DNA of 57,689 nucleotides from the NCBI GenBank assembly GCA_014384345.1, contig JACNGB010000023.1:1-57689 (forward strand). The letters run 5' to 3'. Source of the DNA: Candidatus Thioglobus pontius (GTDB lineage: Bacteria; Pseudomonadota; Gammaproteobacteria; PS1; Pseudothioglobaceae). A model generated the notes under the pieces. The model was not told the DNA's origin and ran no database searches. It was given only the letters and a program-made list of their open reading frames with translations. Both the position numbers and the translations under genes were made by a program. Each line of letters opens with the position of its first letter. Within the stretch, counting starts at the first letter, position 1. Shown one piece after another: positions 36,587-57,689 of the stretch.

Positions 36587-37528
36587 ATGTCTAAAACAGC
36601 GTTAATTTGTGGCTCATATGCCTTTGATTCAATTATGGTCTTCCATGATCAATTTAAAAATCATATCTTGCCAGATAAAGTGCATATGCTAAATGTCTCT
36701 TTTTTGGTGCCAACCATGCGTAAAGAGTTTGGTGGTTGTGGTGGCAATATTGCTTACAACTTGCACCTATTGGGTGCTAATGCTATTCCAATGGCAACAG
36801 TGGGTGAAGATTTTACCCCGTACATGAATTGGATGGAAAAACACCATATGAATACCACGCATATGAAAGTGGTTAAAGATAGTTACACAGGTCAGGCGTT
36901 TATTACTACTGATATGGATGATAACCAAATCACTGCGTTTCACCCAGGTGCGATGAGTAACTCTCATGAAAATAAGGTTAGTGACGTGAGTGTGGCAGAT
37001 ATTGGCATTGTCTCACCTGATGGACGAGACGGTATGATTGAACATGCTCAGCAATTTGCAGAAGCAAAAATTCCATTTATTTTTGATCCAGGCCAAGGTA
37101 TGCCGATGTTCTCTGGCGAAGAATTAACAATCTTTGTTGAGCAGGCAACCTATGTTGCGGTTAATGATTATGAATCGCAAATGTTGGTTGATAAAACTGG
37201 GCTAGAGTTGGCAGTTATTGCTTCAATGGTTGATGCGCTCATTATTACCAAGGGCGGCGAAGGCTCAGAAATTCACACCAAGGGCGAGGTTATAAATATT
37301 GCACCGGCACAAGCTGACTCAGCCCAAGATCCAACAGGCTGTGGTGATGCCTATCGTGCCGGCTTACTCTACGGCATTATGAATGACATGGATTGGAAAA
37401 CAACCGGCCAATTAGCCGGGTTGCTTGGTGCGATTAAAGTGGCTCATCTAGGCACGCAAAACCATCAGTTTGATCTTGAGAAAATAGAAAAACTTTATCA
37501 ACAGCAGTACGGCAAACCCTTGTTATAA
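36587..37528 (+). CDS. PfkB-family kinase, adenosine kinase-like
   Basis: This 313-aa ribokinase-fold protein has the N-terminal GGCGGNIAYNLHLLGA (PfkB signature 1 region) and the C-terminal DSAQDPTGCGDAYRAGLLYG with the catalytic Asp in the anion hole GCGD. Bacterial adenosine-kinase-like members of this type phosphorylate nucleosides; sugar specificity cannot be excluded. I chose ATG 36587 because AAGGAG precedes it at 36574-36579; the longer frame to 36551 lacks a ribosome binding site. The 5' end is partly duplicated upstream. Confidence 0.85.
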   Translation: MSKTALICGSYAFDSIMVFHDQFKNHILPDKVHMLNVSFLVPTMRKEFGGCGGNIAYNLHLLGANAIPMATVGEDFTPYMNWMEKHHMNTTHMKVVKDSYTGQAFITTDMDDNQITAFHPGAMSNSHENKVSDVSVADIGIVSPDGRDGMIEHAQQFAEAKIPFIFDPGQGMPMFSGEELTIFVEQATYVAVNDYESQMLVDKTGLELAVIASMVDALIITKGGEGSEIHTKGEVINIAPAQADSAQDPTGCGDAYRAGLLYGIMNDMDWKTTGQLAGLLGAIKVAHLGTQNHQFDLEKIEKLYQQQYGKPLL

Positions 37529-37538
37529 AAGTCTTTCA

Positions 37539-37546
37539 GGGGGGGG
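37539..37546 (+). repeat. G8 homopolymer tract
   Basis: Eight consecutive Gs occur ten bases after the kinase stop. Such tracts are rare in AT-rich DNA and prone to slippage. A C7 tract lies at 38549-38555, on the other side of the winged-helix and first MASE1-like genes. Confidence 0.7.
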
Positions 37547-37558
37547 CGATTTAATTTA

Positions 37559-37588
37559 TTAGAAAATACTGTTTTAGTAGGTTATAAT
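37559..37588 (+). promoter_or_regulatory. Promoter of the winged-helix gene
   Basis: TATAAT at 37583-37588 with a weak TTAGAA at 37559-37564 (18-bp spacer) lies 44 nt before the start codon. Confidence 0.4.
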
Positions 37589-37631
37589 GATCTTCGAAAT
37601 ACAAACCTCTGAGGAGAGATAAAAAAATAAC

Positions 37632-37913
37632 ATGAAAGCATTAGAAAAATTATTTGAATTACGTCGTTCACTAGATACTTATGAACGCGAAATGGGTTTT
37701 GACAAATTGTCAGAAGTAGAAAAAGCAGTATTAGAGTTTATTATGCATACCAAAAATGCAAATATTACCGCCATTACCAAAGACCAATATTTTGCTAAAT
37801 ATTCACTGTCAACCATCAAGCGTGCAGTGGGCGTTTTATTATCGGAAAAAATTATTAATGCAACACAATCTAGCGTTGATAAGCGCGCCATGGTACTAAC
37901 TTACAATAAGTAA
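37632..37913 (+). CDS. Small winged-helix protein, MarR-like
   Basis: The 93-aa product has a helical start (EKLFELRRSLDTYEREMGF), a helix-turn-helix-like stretch (DQYFAKYSLSTIKRAVGVLL) and a wing with SSVDKRAMVLTYN, similar to the D-K-R wing of MarR proteins. It lacks the long dimerisation helices of full MarR proteins. A GAGGAG at 37611-37616 is about 15 nt from the ATG, longer than usual spacing. It precedes three MASE1-like genes and may regulate them; that is inference from position. Confidence 0.7.
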   Translation: MKALEKLFELRRSLDTYEREMGFDKLSEVEKAVLEFIMHTKNANITAITKDQYFAKYSLSTIKRAVGVLLSEKIINATQSSVDKRAMVLTYNK

Positions 37914-37981
37914 ATTTAATCATTAATTAATGGTTTATCATAATAGGAAATCCATTTAATATAAGTTAAAATTTACGCTCT

Positions 37982-38548
37982 ATGCAAAGTACGATAAATT
38001 ATCTGGCTGAGAACCTGATCGCTTTTTTGAGTGTGTTTTTTGCCGCCTATTTAATGACGACATTCGTCAACTATACCGTCGAATTAAGTGCTTTATTCTA
38101 TTTGCCATTAGGGGCAAAGATCTTAATGTACTTGTTGTTTGGTTTTCGTATATTCCCTGGAATACTCGCTGCATGTATTACTAGTGGTGTTATTTTATTT
38201 GACTCTTGGGGCGGTAATTTACTACTGGGTACCTTATCTGCCTGTGCAGGTGCCACTGCGCCTATTATTGTGATGAGCGGTATGAAATTAGCTAAGATGT
38301 GTGATTTTGATCATCTTGGTGATATTGATTTTAGACATATATTGACATTGGTTATGGGTGTATCAGTAGTTAGCTCCCTGCTTAAATATTTTGTTTTTGC
38401 ACAATCAATTTATCTAGACCTTGCCATATTTGATTTTATCACTCATTATATTGCGGGTGATGTTATGGGTGCGCTATTGGTTATTTATTTGGTATTAAAA
38501 GTACTTGTGCCACTTATTCAAAGAATTGTTCCACAGCAAGCAAGCTAA
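37982..38548 (+). CDS. MASE1-like integral membrane protein, copy 1
   Basis: This 188-aa protein consists almost entirely of membrane helices (about six). Motifs shared with the next two genes are FYLPLGAKILMYLLFGFRI + FPGI, ATAPIIVMSGMKLA, DIDFRHILTL and YIAGDVMGALLVIYL. These resemble the MASE1 sensor domain, normally fused to histidine kinase or diguanylate cyclase output domains; none is present here. A TAAAAT box ends about 13 nt before the ATG, so the mRNA may be nearly leaderless. The ligand is unknown. Confidence 0.7.
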   Translation: MQSTINYLAENLIAFLSVFFAAYLMTTFVNYTVELSALFYLPLGAKILMYLLFGFRIFPGILAACITSGVILFDSWGGNLLLGTLSACAGATAPIIVMSGMKLAKMCDFDHLGDIDFRHILTLVMGVSVVSSLLKYFVFAQSIYLDLAIFDFITHYIAGDVMGALLVIYLVLKVLVPLIQRIVPQQAS

Positions 38549-38555
38549 CCCCCCC
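38549..38555 (+). repeat. C7 homopolymer tract
   Basis: Seven Cs directly follow the stop codon of MASE1-like copy 1. With the G8 tract at 37539 it brackets the first two genes of the cluster. Confidence 0.7.
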
Positions 38556-38574
38556 GCATTATTTTATAGTTCAG

Positions 38575-38580
38575 TATAAT
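38575..38580 (+). promoter_or_regulatory. -10 box upstream of MASE1-like copy 2
   Basis: TATAAT at 38575-38580, 28 nt before the copy 2 start, suggests that copies 2 and 3 can be transcribed separately from copy 1. Confidence 0.4.
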
Positions 38581-38608
38581 AGGCTATTTTTAGCTTATTA
38601 TTTAATCA

Positions 38609-39145
38609 ATGTTATTGCTACAGCATAATTTTTTAACCTTTATACTGGTGATTGTATCGCTATTGTTGGTTGAAGGCATGGGGCATATTGATTTTTCGAA
38701 TGGCAATCTTCTGTTTTTGCCAATGGGTGCGGCAATCCTTTCTTATTTATTATTCGGGTACGGCGTATTGCCAGGTGTTGCATTAGCTAATACGCTAATT
38801 GGCTATACGCTGTGGAATAACTGGTTTGGTAATGGCTTTGATGGCTTTTCTGGCCACGTTATTATTGGTTCGTTGGCGCCAATTGTTGCTATTCAAATGA
38901 TGAAGTCTTTTGGTTTATCGCAATTCTTTGATGGCAAAGAAATCAACTACCGTCATGTGATGTTCGTTGTCATACTAACAGCGCTGCTTAATACGTTTGG
39001 CAAATTTTCTTTATTTTATGGCGTTTTGCAAGAAGATATTAATGTTGTTAATTTTGTATCAACCTATTTAATTGGCGATATTCTTGGCGGTTTTGTTTTT
39101 ATTTATGCCACCGTTAAATTGTCGAAACTATTGGAGAATCGATGA
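38609..39145 (+). CDS. MASE1-like integral membrane protein, copy 2
   Basis: This 178-aa paralog has LFLPMGAAILSYLLFGYGV followed by LPGVALAN, IIGSLAPIVAIQMMKSFGLS, EINYRHVMFVVILTAL and YLIGDILGGFVFIYATVK, aligning throughout with copies 1 and 3. About six membrane helices and no soluble domain are seen. It overlaps copy 3 by four nt (ATGA), so these two are translationally coupled and may form a heteromer. Confidence 0.7.
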   Translation: MLLLQHNFLTFILVIVSLLLVEGMGHIDFSNGNLLFLPMGAAILSYLLFGYGVLPGVALANTLIGYTLWNNWFGNGFDGFSGHVIIGSLAPIVAIQMMKSFGLSQFFDGKEINYRHVMFVVILTALLNTFGKFSLFYGVLQEDINVVNFVSTYLIGDILGGFVFIYATVKLSKLLENR

Positions 39146-39693
39146 AGCAATTTCTTTGGTTTAACGCGATAGCCTTTGCGATGGTATTTGTATCGCGTTT
39201 AATTATTGTGCCGTTTGACCATATTAATATCTCTATTGCTAATTATATTTGGTTACCAATGGGTGCAGCTATTTTGGCACCATTGTTGTTCGGCTTTAAA
39301 TCTTTTCCTGGCGTAGTTTTGGGTTATTTTCTAGCAACCTTTATTACGAAAGGCTTTACTTGGGAGGCGGTGCATATGTATAGCTATATGGGTAAATTTA
39401 TCGATAGCTTAGCACCAATTGTCTCTATATTAATTATGCGAGCTTTCCATTTGTCTACTTTCTTTGATTCAGGTAAGGTGAAGTATTCACACGTTATGTT
39501 CTTAGTGATTCTTGCTTCATTAATTGCAACCTTTGCTAAAGTGTTTGTGTATCCAATGCAAGGCAAGCTAATTCCAGATCCGGTATTGTTTATTCAGTCG
39601 TATGCAGCTAGCGATATATTTGGCGGCATTGTGTTTATTTATATTGCCCTTAAGTTATTTGCTTCAAAACTTATTAAAAACAAGCTAATTTAG
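39142..39693 (+). CDS. MASE1-like integral membrane protein, copy 3
   Basis: This 183-aa protein is the closest relative of copy 2. It has IWLPMGAAILAPLLFGFKS + FPGV, FIDSLAPIVSILIMRAFHLS, KVKYSHVMFLVILASL and YAASDIFGGIVFIYIALK. The arrangement is that of a stand-alone MASE1-type sensor domain. The 3' end overlaps the convergent mfd stop by nine nt. Confidence 0.7.
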   Translation: MKQFLWFNAIAFAMVFVSRLIIVPFDHINISIANYIWLPMGAAILAPLLFGFKSFPGVVLGYFLATFITKGFTWEAVHMYSYMGKFIDSLAPIVSILIMRAFHLSTFFDSGKVKYSHVMFLVILASLIATFAKVFVYPMQGKLIPDPVLFIQSYAASDIFGGIVFIYIALKLFASKLIKNKLI

Positions 39694-42600
39694 CTTTTTT
39701 AGTAAATTTTCGATAAGCTCAATGCGTCTGATGTCTTCAGGCATATCTTCTTTTACAATTAACTGATTTTGACCCTTTAACTGATAGTTTTTAGGCTGTT
39801 TTTGGATCAAATGAATGATTTTTATCGGTTCTATGGTATTTTTAGTGCCAAAAGTGATGATGGCTTTATCGTCATAAAGGTTAATTTCATCAATTCCGAT
39901 TTTTTCGCAAAAAAGTTTGAGTCGCGTATTGGCAAATAAATGCTTGGTTGAATCTGGTAAAAGACCAAAGCGATCAATCATCTCAATTTGTAATTCTTTG
40001 AGGTCGTTATTGGTGTTGCAACTGGCAATACGCTTGTATAAGACTAAGCGTTCATGTACATCTTCTAAATAGTTTTGCGGAATAATAGAAGGTAGTCCGC
40101 AGTCAATTTGAATTTCGTGATTAATCGGATCATCAAGATTAATTTTGCGCCCAGAGCGCATCGCATCAATGGTGCGCTTGAGTAAGTCATGGTACAGATT
40201 AAACCCAATCTCACTAATCTTGCCTGATTGATTATCGCCGAGCAAATCGCCAGCACCTCTGATTTCTAGGTCATGATTAGCCAGCATAAATCCAGCGCCC
40301 AGCTCCTCAAGGGATTCAATCGCATCCAAGCGTTTTTTAGCATCTTTAGACAGTGATTGATGAGATTTAATCACAAGATAGGCATAGGCTCGGTGATGTG
40401 ACCTTCCAACACGACCACGTAATTGATGGAGTTGTGCCAGGCCAAAATTTTGTGCATTATTAATAATAATGGTGTTGGCATTAGGAATATCGATACCCGT
40501 TTCAATAATGGTGGTGCAAACCAAAATTTGAAAACGTGCATGATAAAAGTCACTCATGATGTGTTCGAGTTCACGGGTTGGCATTTGCCCATGGGCAATA
40601 CGCACAGCAACATTTGGCATGAGCGCTTTAAGGCTTTCAGCTAAATTATCAATAGAGTCAATATCATTATGTAGAACAAAAATCTGCCCACCACGATGTA
40701 GCTCTCGATTGCAAGCCTCTTTGATGTTGTCATCTTGCCATTCTTGCACAAAGGTTTGGATAGCACTTCGTTTTGCCGGTGGTGTGGCAATAATGGACAA
40801 TTCACGCAATGAGCCAAGTGCCATATTAAGCGTACGCGGAATTGGCGTGGCAGTCATTGTCAGAATGTCACTTTGGCCACGCATTTTTTTCAACGCCTCT
40901 TTTTGCTTAACACCAAACCGGTGTTCTTCGTCGATAATGACTAGACCGAGGTTCTTATACTTGATGCTACCCTGAATGATTTTATGGGTGCCGATTACAA
41001 TGTCAATTTTGCCAACGTTAAGCTTTTCAATAATAATCTTTTGCTCTTTGGGTGTTTGGAATCTGGATAGCGCAGCAATTTCAACCGGATAATCGGCAAA
41101 GCGATCAGAAAATGATTGATGGTGTTGATTGGCCAACAAGGTGGTTGGCACTAAAATAGCGACTTGCTTGCCGGCTTCTACAGCTAAAAAAGCAGCCCTC
41201 ATAGCAATTTCTGTTTTGCCAAAGCCTACATCGCCACACACTAAGCGGTCCATGGGTTTGTGCGAGCGCATATCAGCCAACACTTCTCCCATGGTTTTCA
41301 GTTGATCGGGTGTCTCTTCAAAAGCAAAGCTGGCCACAAAAGATGAATAAGCATCGTTAGGCTCAGGAAATGAAAATCCTGTTTGTGATTCACGTTTGGC
41401 ATATATTTCTAAGAGCTCTGCAGCTACATCGTGTAGTGCTTCACCAGCTTTTTTCTTAGCCTTGCTCCACTGAGGCGTGCCTAGTTTGTGCAAAGGTGCA
41501 TTTTCAGGTGAAGTGCCAGAATAACGAGAAATTAAATTAAGCGAGGTCATTGGTACCATGAGTTTAGCACCACCGGCATATTCTAGCTGTAAAAAGTCTT
41601 GAGATTGACCATCATAAGTTTGAGTTTTTAGACCCAAATAGCGACCAATTCCATAGTTTTCATGAACGATAGGATCACCTTGTTTTATTTCAACCAGACT
41701 TTTAATGGCTTCATCAAAGTCTTTATGCTTGGCTCTACGTCTGCGTTGCTGTTGTACAACCTCTTGGCCAAATAAATTTTCTTCAGTAACAATGGCAATA
41801 TCGTCACTGAGTAGCCCTTGGGCCAAAGTTTGGTTGGTGATACAAAGGGGCTGACTCTCTATTAAAAACTGCTGCCAATCAGTGATGGGCTTAGCTGTTA
41901 GGCTGTGATTGGATAACAGCTCTTCTAGAATAGTTTGCCTGCCTTGTGATTGACAAACAATCAGAATTCGACGATTAGACCTGTCAATAAATCCGGACAA
42001 TTTGGCCAGTGGGTTTTTATTTTGAGGATCAATTTGCAAGGGTGGCAACAACTTTGATTTGAAGTTTACATGCCCCGCTTTATCTGCTAATTTTGAAGGC
42101 GAAATGATCAGCTGCGATTGTTGCTTAATGGCAGAGAATAGTTGGTCTTTATTTAAAAAAACCTGATTAAGTTCAAGTGGTGGGCGCTCAAGATCTTGCT
42201 GAGCATGCTTAAAACGTGACTGAAGTTCTTGATAAGTGTTATCAACTAGTTCGCTAAAACCAGCAGAAGTGGCAACGGTGATATTGTTGGGCAGGTAGTC
42301 AAATAGCGTATTAGTTGATTTGAAAAATAAGGGCAAGTAAAACTCAATGCCACCTGGCAGCCTACCCTCGCTTACCTCGTTATAAATAAAGCTTTGCTTG
42401 GCAAAGGCTTGATCATAATTGTGTTTGAATAATTCTATGCTAGCATTGTCAGTGGCAAATTCACGCGCTGGCAATAAAGCAATCTGCTTAACTTGTGATT
42501 CACTACGCTGGGTCGATGTGTCAAAGGTGCGAATACTTTCAATTTCTTCATCAAATAAATCTAGTCGGTACGGCGCCTTGGCGCCCATTGGGTACAGGTC

Positions 42601-43113
42601 AATCAACGATCCTCGAATGTTAAATTCGCCATGCTCCATGACCGTCGTTACCCGATTGTAGCCAATTTTCAGTAGTTTTTCACTAAAACTATTTGGCTCT
42701 ATTGTGTCGCCCACATCAAGATTAAAGCTGTATTGCTCGCTAAATTCAATTGGGCAAAGTCGTGAACATAGCGTTTCCAAGGTGGTAATGACAACCCCTT
42801 GTTTGAGCGACTTAAGTTTGGATAAAGTTTTTAAGCGATTGGAGGTGATATCAGGATGAGGTGAAAATTGATCATAAGCTAACACCTCCCAATGATTAAA
42901 AGACAAGATGTTTAAGTCATGAGCATAAAAATTGAGCGAATGATAAAGACTGTCTAAATGAGCGATATCATTAGCAATAAGCAGTATAACTTGCGGGTTT
43001 TGTTGAACATGCTCGATTAATGCCAGCGCATCAGCACTGCCATATAAAGAGCCCCAATAAGTTTTTTTACCTGAAGCTAAGGCGCTAACCTTGTCAGGAT
43101 GCAAATAGGCCAT
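39685..43113 (-). CDS. mfd: Transcription-repair coupling factor Mfd
   Basis: Mfd removes stalled RNA polymerase and recruits UvrA. The 1142-aa protein has the UvrB-like N-terminal module (to about 350), the RNA polymerase interaction domain (KQGDPIVHENYGIGRYLGL), a RecG-like translocase (Walker A CGDVGFGKTEIAMRAAF, DEEHRFGVKQKEAL, TMTATPIPRTLNMAL, AHGQMPTRELE, IETGIDIPNANTIII, QLRGRVGRS), and the C-terminal TRCF domain. Length is typical. Confidence 0.97.
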   Translation of the reverse strand: MAYLHPDKVSALASGKKTYWGSLYGSADALALIEHVQQNPQVILLIANDIAHLDSLYHSLNFYAHDLNILSFNHWEVLAYDQFSPHPDITSNRLKTLSKLKSLKQGVVITTLETLCSRLCPIEFSEQYSFNLDVGDTIEPNSFSEKLLKIGYNRVTTVMEHGEFNIRGSLIDLYPMGAKAPYRLDLFDEEIESIRTFDTSTQRSESQVKQIALLPAREFATDNASIELFKHNYDQAFAKQSFIYNEVSEGRLPGGIEFYLPLFFKSTNTLFDYLPNNITVATSAGFSELVDNTYQELQSRFKHAQQDLERPPLELNQVFLNKDQLFSAIKQQSQLIISPSKLADKAGHVNFKSKLLPPLQIDPQNKNPLAKLSGFIDRSNRRILIVCQSQGRQTILEELLSNHSLTAKPITDWQQFLIESQPLCITNQTLAQGLLSDDIAIVTEENLFGQEVVQQQRRRRAKHKDFDEAIKSLVEIKQGDPIVHENYGIGRYLGLKTQTYDGQSQDFLQLEYAGGAKLMVPMTSLNLISRYSGTSPENAPLHKLGTPQWSKAKKKAGEALHDVAAELLEIYAKRESQTGFSFPEPNDAYSSFVASFAFEETPDQLKTMGEVLADMRSHKPMDRLVCGDVGFGKTEIAMRAAFLAVEAGKQVAILVPTTLLANQHHQSFSDRFADYPVEIAALSRFQTPKEQKIIIEKLNVGKIDIVIGTHKIIQGSIKYKNLGLVIIDEEHRFGVKQKEALKKMRGQSDILTMTATPIPRTLNMALGSLRELSIIATPPAKRSAIQTFVQEWQDDNIKEACNRELHRGGQIFVLHNDIDSIDNLAESLKALMPNVAVRIAHGQMPTRELEHIMSDFYHARFQILVCTTIIETGIDIPNANTIIINNAQNFGLAQLHQLRGRVGRSHHRAYAYLVIKSHQSLSKDAKKRLDAIESLEELGAGFMLANHDLEIRGAGDLLGDNQSGKISEIGFNLYHDLLKRTIDAMRSGRKINLDDPINHEIQIDCGLPSIIPQNYLEDVHERLVLYKRIASCNTNNDLKELQIEMIDRFGLLPDSTKHLFANTRLKLFCEKIGIDEINLYDDKAIITFGTKNTIEPIKIIHLIQKQPKNYQLKGQNQLIVKEDMPEDIRRIELIENLLKKLN

Positions 43114-57535: not shown

Positions 57536-57689
57536 GAACTGAAGAGTTTGATCCTGGCTCAGATTGAACGCTGGCGGTATGCTTAACACATGCAAGTCGA
57601 ACGGAAACGATGGAAGCTTGCTTCCAGGCGTCGAGTGGCGGACGGGTGAGTAACGCGTAGGAATCTGCCTGATAGTGGGGGATAGCCCG
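57536..57689 (+). rRNA. rrs: 16S ribosomal RNA, 5' end (truncated by window)
   Basis: GAAGAGTTTGATCCTGGCTC (57541-57560) is the universal 16S 5' sequence. It continues with AACACATGCAAGTCGAACGG and ACGGGTGAGTAACGCGTAGG. The mature end is set near 57536 by comparison with E. coli. Only about 154 nt are in the window. The sequence is of gammaproteobacterial type. Confidence 0.98.

Follow-up and report, generated by a model that had tools for sequence, protein, structure and literature searches.

Half-length MASE1-like membrane proteins encoded together with a small winged-helix protein in Candidatus Thioglobus pontius and other Pseudomonadota

Layout of the locus

We analyzed a stretch of 57,689 nucleotides from Candidatus Thioglobus pontius (the window), which is the entire contig JACNGB010000023.1 (G000:C42 in our numbering) of a 1.25 Mb genome spread across 56 contigs. 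The gene order of interest is pfkB, a gene for a 93-amino-acid winged-helix protein, three genes for membrane proteins that we call copies 1 to 3, and mfd. An earlier note on this DNA, written from the letters alone, had read the three copies as stand-alone sensor domains of the MASE1 type. The features are as follows (genomes and loci carry G and L numbers throughout).

36587-37528, plus strand: pfkB, identified by a Pfam match
37583..37588, plus strand: TATAAT, candidate -10 box of the winged-helix gene, identical in 10 of 10 aligned upstream regions of related genomes; its promoter role is putative
37632-37913, plus strand: P0001, MarR-like winged-helix protein of 93 amino acids, the proposed DNA-binding output (open reading frame, AlphaFold2, Foldseek)
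37982-38548, plus strand: copy 1 (P0002), 188 amino acids, half-MASE1 membrane protein of putative S-component fold, with a sub-cut-off Pfam MASE1 score and its own tree group
38609-39145, plus strand: copy 2 (P0003), 178 amino acids, for which an AlphaFold2 model was made
39142-39693, plus strand: copy 3 (P0004), 183 amino acids, 43% identical to copy 2, with a weak Pfam MASE1 score
39142-39145, plus strand: ATGA, in which the start of copy 3 overlaps the stop of copy 2, as it also does in G062, G064, and G076
39685-43113, minus strand: mfd, a DNA-repair gene downstream of the array

The three consecutive proteins of 178-188 amino acids are indeed related to each other, as pairwise BLASTP gave identities of 43% for copies 2 and 3 (E 2e-38) and of 29% and 30% for the other two pairs (2e-24 and 2e-21), which is far above chance. 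The four-base overlap of copies 2 and 3 is likewise present, and this ATGA arrangement likely couples their translation. The four motif blocks that had been proposed for the copies occur in the same order in all three, but the third block is API-I and not APIV in copy 1. Copy 3 has SD in place of GD in the fourth block, a variation that the proposed G/S pattern had allowed.

The winged-helix protein ahead of the array, proposed on the basis of its open reading frame, was confirmed by an AlphaFold2 model with a mean predicted local distance difference test (pLDDT) score of 91.3, in which an N-terminal helix (residues 2-21) precedes the winged helix. The best Foldseek matches of this model were AdcR, MarR, and MexR (probability 1.00), which assigns it the MarR-family winged-helix fold. 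P0001 thus resembles MarR/SarA regulators in its winged helix with an N-terminal helix. Unlike these, it has 93 residues, stays below the Pfam cut-offs (SarA/Rot 18.1 versus 27), and lacks C-terminal helices in the monomer model, whereas the MarR dimer uses N- and C-terminal helices. A sequence search of the Protein Data Bank returned nothing credible for the winged-helix protein.

Three further details of the window may be recorded. Upstream of the winged-helix gene, at 37539-37546, there is a run of eight G, which in G069 has one base less; a run of seven C lies at 38549-38555, just past copy 1; and the contig ends 154 bases into a 16S rRNA gene (57536-57689). The labels ispH, accD, trpA, folA, hemE, ilvD, TtrS/TtrR-like, FixJ-type, GGDEF, and GAF for neighboring genes, here and in other genomes, were assigned by eye.

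A recurrent pair of winged-helix and membrane genes

Among 83 genomes of the same family, relatives of the membrane proteins occur in 43 and relatives of the winged-helix protein in 42. Both genes are found together in 41 genomes, one alone in three, and neither in 39 (Fisher p 4e-20, not corrected for kinship), and both fall in the same six of the 11 genera. Gene order was inspected at 41 loci, the window among them, which come from 33 of these genomes. In all 30 loci with both genes, the winged-helix gene lies directly upstream on the same strand; these loci carry one membrane copy in 17 cases, two in four, three in six, four in two, and five in one. The remaining 11 loci have one gene type, three of them the winged-helix gene (L067, L077, and L078) and eight the membrane gene, and five of these eight (L054, L056, L068, L072, and L081) adjoin mfd at a place where the contig breaks off. 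G004 and G072 carry a second module that is not near mfd. Two tandem winged-helix genes precede the membrane array in L046, L051, L052, and L071.

The link recurs in distant bacteria. A sample of 369 genomes of the class yielded eight further matches, with stand-alone frames in two (G113 and G363). In the order of G113, 34 of 151 genomes were matched by our first profile and 44 by a combined profile, and at 29 of 30 loci the winged-helix gene lies at most 300 bases upstream; at the 30th it is upstream past a masked stretch. At the level of the phylum, 17 of 398 genomes were matched, including that of the window. The other matches comprise nine stand-alone places in eight genomes, seven multi-domain frames (498-972 amino acids), and one fragment with stops. 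A winged-helix gene is adjacent at all nine stand-alone places (upstream at two, divergent at six, and downstream at one), and our search found a membrane partner at 28 of the 30 best winged-helix loci in the genus of G780. As a control, the same three profiles detected no winged-helix neighbor at any of 39 multi-domain MASE1 loci, some of which represent one gene retrieved twice.

The membrane protein is rarely seen without the regulator, and the regulator family has further members. The conserved unit is therefore the winged-helix gene with at least one membrane gene. The idea that the triplet is the unit had to be given up, as relatives carry one to five copies and most often one. Single, scattered copies had been named in the earlier note as a possible counterargument; single copies are in fact the commonest state, but they nearly always sit in the same place, behind the winged-helix gene.

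The winged-helix relatives do not all align with each other equally well: hhalign gave a probability of 98.2 for the profiles of Thioglobus and the order of G113, and of 88.9 for those of the order of G113 and the G780 type. One relative is fused to a GAF-like sensory region (domain assigned by eye; L270:1502-2431) and adjoins a GGDEF-EAL-like gene. We also looked for fusions of the winged helix to the membrane protein, which would have been proof that the two touch. Of the long frames, those in G064 and G551 turned out to be runs of N, and that in G975 is a winged helix with a GAF-like region, so that no true fusion was present among the long frames inspected (G064, G551, and G975). As a separate observation, a tRNA gene of either orientation lies a short way upstream of the winged-helix gene, or extends across the point at which the longest frame of that gene begins, at 15 of 19 loci scanned in the order of G113 (L084, L094, L095, L097, L099-L102, L104-L107, L109, L114, and L116), possibly as an integration site or as old synteny.

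Within the array, the copies have distinct histories. Copies 1, 2, and 3 fall into separate groups of the tree, each common to other genomes. Between G062 and G064, the synonymous distance is 0.05 for copies 2 and 3, in contrast to 1.11 for copy 1 and 1.2-1.75 for mfd, ispH, accD, trpA, and folA. As this low distance is found in copies 2 and 3 only, it indicates that these two moved between lineages as a pair by horizontal exchange. The copies 2 and 3 of the window are 89-90% identical to those of G076, which belongs to another genus, with 75% identity for mfd, whereas copy 2 is only 53-55% identical to its relatives within the genus, with 85-87% for mfd. In G069, whose mfd is 97% identical to that of the window, copy 1 is interrupted and copies 2 and 3 are absent. 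The ratio of non-synonymous to synonymous substitution rates (dN/dS) in close pairs is 0.13-0.48 for the membrane genes and mostly 0.02-0.12 for their neighbors, folA being an outlier with 0.72 at very low dS; in more distant pairs, the membrane genes have 0.06-0.31. By these ratios, the membrane proteins diverge faster than their neighbors, yet under purifying selection.

Relation to MASE1 and predicted fold

MASE1 (PF05231) serves as an input domain in histidine kinases and in DgcE of E. coli. With the Pfam model, whose cut-off is 29.8 bits, copy 1 scored 26.4 bits (E 4.5e-6, model positions 3-175 of 299) and copy 3 13.0 bits, and copy 2 gave no match. The profile search against MASE1 that the earlier note had suggested gave a firm result once relatives were included. 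Of 43 family members, 26 match Pfam MASE1 at E<=0.01 (best 3.6e-10), and two other families are matched by one member each. When the 43-member profile was aligned by hhalign to 25 true MASE1 domains, it gave a probability of 96.7 and E 3e-10 over columns 2-177 of 284. A stand-alone relative from another class, at L163, even passes the cut-off (38.7 versus 29.8 bits, positions 4-173 of 299). The residues G40, P91, and G160 are invariant across the 43 alignment rows.

By profile, the three copies are half-length, stand-alone, distant relatives of MASE1 that span only the first ~175 of its ~290 positions. The blocks (L/W)-P-x-G, FG....PG, and GD..G occur in the same order in both. MASE1 differs in that it has ~290-300 residues and eight to ten helices, as opposed to 178-188 residues and six helices predicted from the model of copy 2, and in that it forms the N-terminal part of a multi-domain protein: in 114 gammaproteobacterial genomes, each of the 25 MASE1 domains above the cut-off belongs to a frame of 483-1214 amino acids, whereas the copies have no kinase, cyclase, or phosphodiesterase. 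The proposed likeness to MASE1 without an output domain therefore holds as distant homology, but none of the copies reaches the cut-off and only the first part of the domain is covered.

A Protein Data Bank sequence search with the membrane proteins found no relatives at E<=10. The AlphaFold2 model of copy 2, made from 32 sequences, has six helices, a pLDDT of 84.3, and a predicted template modelling (pTM) score of 0.84. When the model was compared with solved structures by VIA-align, substrate-binding (S) components of energy-coupling factor (ECF) transporters or the related NikM/CbiM took ranks 1-11 of the 50 entries listed, with Z scores of 9.5-13.6 and the whole model covered; the next entry had a Z of 7.5. 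ThiT ranked highest (Z 13.6, root mean square deviation 3.2 over 158 residues), RibU had 13.4 and BioY 11.4, and further rows in this group were FolT, a pantothenate S component, 4m5b, and 5x3x (Z 9.5). Although helical bundles may reach a Z of about 13 through common arrangement alone, we assign the S-component fold to copy 2 as a prediction, because eleven rows of one fold family cover the full length and are separated by a gap from the other entries.

In its predicted six-helix fold over the full length, copy 2 resembles ThiT, RibU, BioY, and FolT. ECF S components differ in having an AxxxA motif and an EcfT partner, whereas the copies have no sequence-family match to them and are linked to a winged-helix gene. 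Only 12 of 64 rows have AxxxA in helix 1, and its place varies among them, so that this EcfT-docking motif is not conserved. EcfT (PF02361) was found in none of the 83 family genomes, with 10 of 14 control genomes positive (EcfA was not searched), and no ECF S family was among the Pfam matches of the three copies. Because of the partial MASE1 span, the predicted S-component fold, the lack of EcfT, and the non-conserved AxxxA, we regard the copies as solitary proteins of putative S-component fold that are distinct both from ordinary MASE1 modules and from ECF subunits. An assignment to an unrelated transporter family, which would have spoken against the MASE1 idea, is thus what the predicted fold suggests, but not what the profiles give, and the homology to MASE1 stays.

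According to Partipilo and Slotboom (2024, PMC11109136), the S-component fold is common to ECF S components, 5TMR-LYT receptors, and MreD, and the AxxxA of helix 1 is lost outside transport. The 5TMR-LYT receptors or S-component-fold "transceptors" described there resemble our copies in that the fold is used outside ECF transport and AxxxA is lost. Unlike the copies, for which the output would lie on a separate protein, these receptors are, as described there, fused to a kinase or another output and have an extra helix H0 and an NxR motif. Our alignment A3 showed, by eye, no R two residues past the conserved N of the helix 1-2 loop, and the model of copy 2 has no extra helix before the one that spans residues 2-22. 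MASE1 does not occur in that paper.

The average number of lysines and arginines is 0.2-0.3 in loops 1, 3, and 5, 1.7 in loop 4, and 2.1 at the C-terminus, a distribution that is consistent with both termini being inside. Of the two halves, the one presumed to be cytoplasmic shows the higher conservation, with an entropy of 1.90 versus 2.42 bits, according to a rough partition that was picked after viewing the model.

Receptor, transporter, or immunity protein

We favor the view that the locus encodes a split one-component system, with a receptor in the membrane that governs the small MarR-like regulator, and we would place its chances at about even. Each membrane protein would be a free-standing six-helix receptor of S-component fold with a ligand site toward the periplasm. 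Lacking a sensory domain itself, the MarR-like winged-helix protein would receive the ligand state through the cytoplasmic side of the receptor, which is the more conserved one. SdpR of Bacillus subtilis is a small winged-helix protein, and the relay could work, for example, by holding the winged-helix protein at the membrane, as SdpI does with SdpR. In the Thioglobus group, the receptor gene would have been multiplied to 1-5 diverged copies, so that several inputs could feed one regulator output, and the coupled copies 2 and 3 may form one heteromeric unit.

We favor such a split between receptor and regulator because the membrane protein has the predicted fold of proteins that bind small ligands from outside, and its neighbor is a DNA-binding protein that has no sensory part. 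The recurrent gene linkage, the homology to MASE1, the lack of EcfT and of a conserved AxxxA, the charge and conservation of the presumed cytoplasmic side, and the GAF-like fusion in L270 also count in its favor. The closest published mechanism is that of SdpI, a polytopic membrane protein by which the autorepressor SdpR is sequestered once a ligand is sensed (PMC1626106), and the MASE1 domain of DgcE is likewise the docking site for a soluble partner, the GTPase RdcA (PMC6510439). The SdpR-SdpI locus and ours both have a small winged-helix gene adjacent to a polytopic membrane gene. They differ in that the copies have no SdpI Pfam match and that several membrane copies per regulator occur here.

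Several points weigh against this view. That the copies bind a ligand, touch and sequester the winged-helix protein, and form heteromers is inferred, and a local regulator with a transporter would yield the same gene order. The fold match by Foldseek was weak (RibU, E 1.3, probability 0.92, TM score 0.63). Lone membrane copies away from mfd and without a winged-helix gene exist at L073-L075 (G062, G064, and G070), where their neighbors are, by eye, a FixJ/TtrR-like response regulator and a kinase whose periplasmic part resembles PhnD. In the genus of G780, a membrane partner accompanies 12 of the 40 weaker winged-helix relatives examined and is missing from the other 28. The winged-helix profiles of Thioglobus and the G780 type align with a probability of only 1.4, so that sequence does not show common descent of all three winged-helix groups.

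A candidate operator that we first read as a sign of autoregulation by the winged-helix protein also failed to support the mechanism. In three genomes of the genus g315, the divergent promoter between the winged-helix and the membrane gene contains the dyad ATATTAGC-N6-GCTAATAT, of which these genomes have 15, 19, and 13 sites, versus 1, 2, and 5 for the control. In this genus, both relatives of the winged-helix protein (79 of 81 genomes) and of a response regulator (81 of 81) are nearly universal. With up to two mismatches allowed, the dyad was found at 21 of 23 response-regulator promoters versus 8 of 28 winged-helix promoters scored; of 30 loci each, seven response-regulator loci without an accepted open reading frame and two winged-helix loci without a partner were excluded. 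As the dyad follows the response regulator better, we rejected it as the winged-helix operator; it is probably the site of the response regulator, and the set of dyads probably that regulator's regulon. The dyad lies upstream of the FixJ-type response regulator gene divergent from ilvD in three of three genomes, upstream of a 104-amino-acid gene with a GGDEF-like membrane gene in two of three, and at other promoters, that of the winged-helix/membrane module included (L189, L195, and L188; also L186, L190, L194, L199, and L196). The response regulator of L074 is 31% identical to that of g315. In the window's own group, no dyad is common to all 10 aligned regions upstream of the winged-helix gene, and no Rfam riboswitch was detected at gathering scores in the window or in 19 loci.

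A regulator beside a transporter gene is a common arrangement. For this reason, and because the predicted fold is that of a transporter, the possibility that the copies are solitary S-component transporters is a real rival, and the main one, although we consider it less likely than the receptor. They would take up scarce small molecules without an ECF motor, with the winged-helix protein controlling expression and the substrates differing by copy. This would suit stand-alone six-helix proteins that match ECF S components over their full length in the predicted fold, as well as the small genomes of many hosts, and precedents have been proposed with solitary BioY or with BtuM, a predicted vitamin B12 uptake protein according to PMC6072759. 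However, sequence homology connects the copies to MASE1, a signaling input, and not to any ECF S family, and the outward half, in which the substrate side is expected, is the less conserved one. The missing AxxxA conservation and EcfT also speak against transport, although solitary transporters would need neither. MarR effectors commonly bind near the C-terminal helices, and a winged-helix protein without these helices would need another input.

The fast divergence of the copies (53-55% versus 85-87% for copy 2 and mfd, and the dN/dS values given above), the horizontal exchange of copies 2 and 3, and the interrupted copy 1 and missing copies 2 and 3 in G069 could also reflect an arms race, in which the copies would be immunity or adaptor proteins that protect against, or dock, proteins or peptides in the membrane, with the winged-helix protein setting the dose. 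The docking of RdcA by the MASE1 domain of DgcE, as described in PMC6510439, would fit this as well, and SdpI is both an immunity protein and a receptor, which makes this explanation compatible with signaling. Yet no toxin, peptide, or secretion gene was recognized by eye in the neighborhoods examined, which contain mostly housekeeping genes, and no ortholog pair has a dN/dS above 1, so that we regard this explanation as improbable. That the copies are functionless, truncated MASE1 remnants kept by chance is hardly credible: only the first ~60% of MASE1 is present, but dN/dS is below 0.5 in all scored membrane-gene ortholog pairs, which points to purifying selection, G40, P91, and G160 are invariant, and the proteins turn up again, beside a partner of the same type, in distant lineages.

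To return to the split receptor-regulator system, its generalization can be put forward only tentatively, as we judge it somewhat more apt to fail than to hold: a widespread and so far unnamed class of one-component signaling across Pseudomonadota, with a free-standing receptor of S-component fold that corresponds to the first half of MASE1 and controls a separate small MarR-type regulator, and of which the Thioglobus array, with exchangeable receptors for different ligands and one regulator, would be an elaborate case. The open-licence literature that we searched contains no report of a stand-alone MASE1, of the MASE1 fold, or of a winged helix-MASE1 pair, and an S-component-fold receptor whose output is carried by a separate DNA-binding protein, the layout suggested here, was not found there either. 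To our knowledge, no ligand is known for MASE1, although it is a common bacterial sensor domain. A stand-alone minimal MASE1 of 178 amino acids, with a candidate partner and a predicted fold that is familiar from ligand-binding proteins, makes MASE1 sensing and signaling open to expression, purification, and testing. If the generalization above is correct, MASE1 itself would be a further branch of the S-component-fold transceptors.

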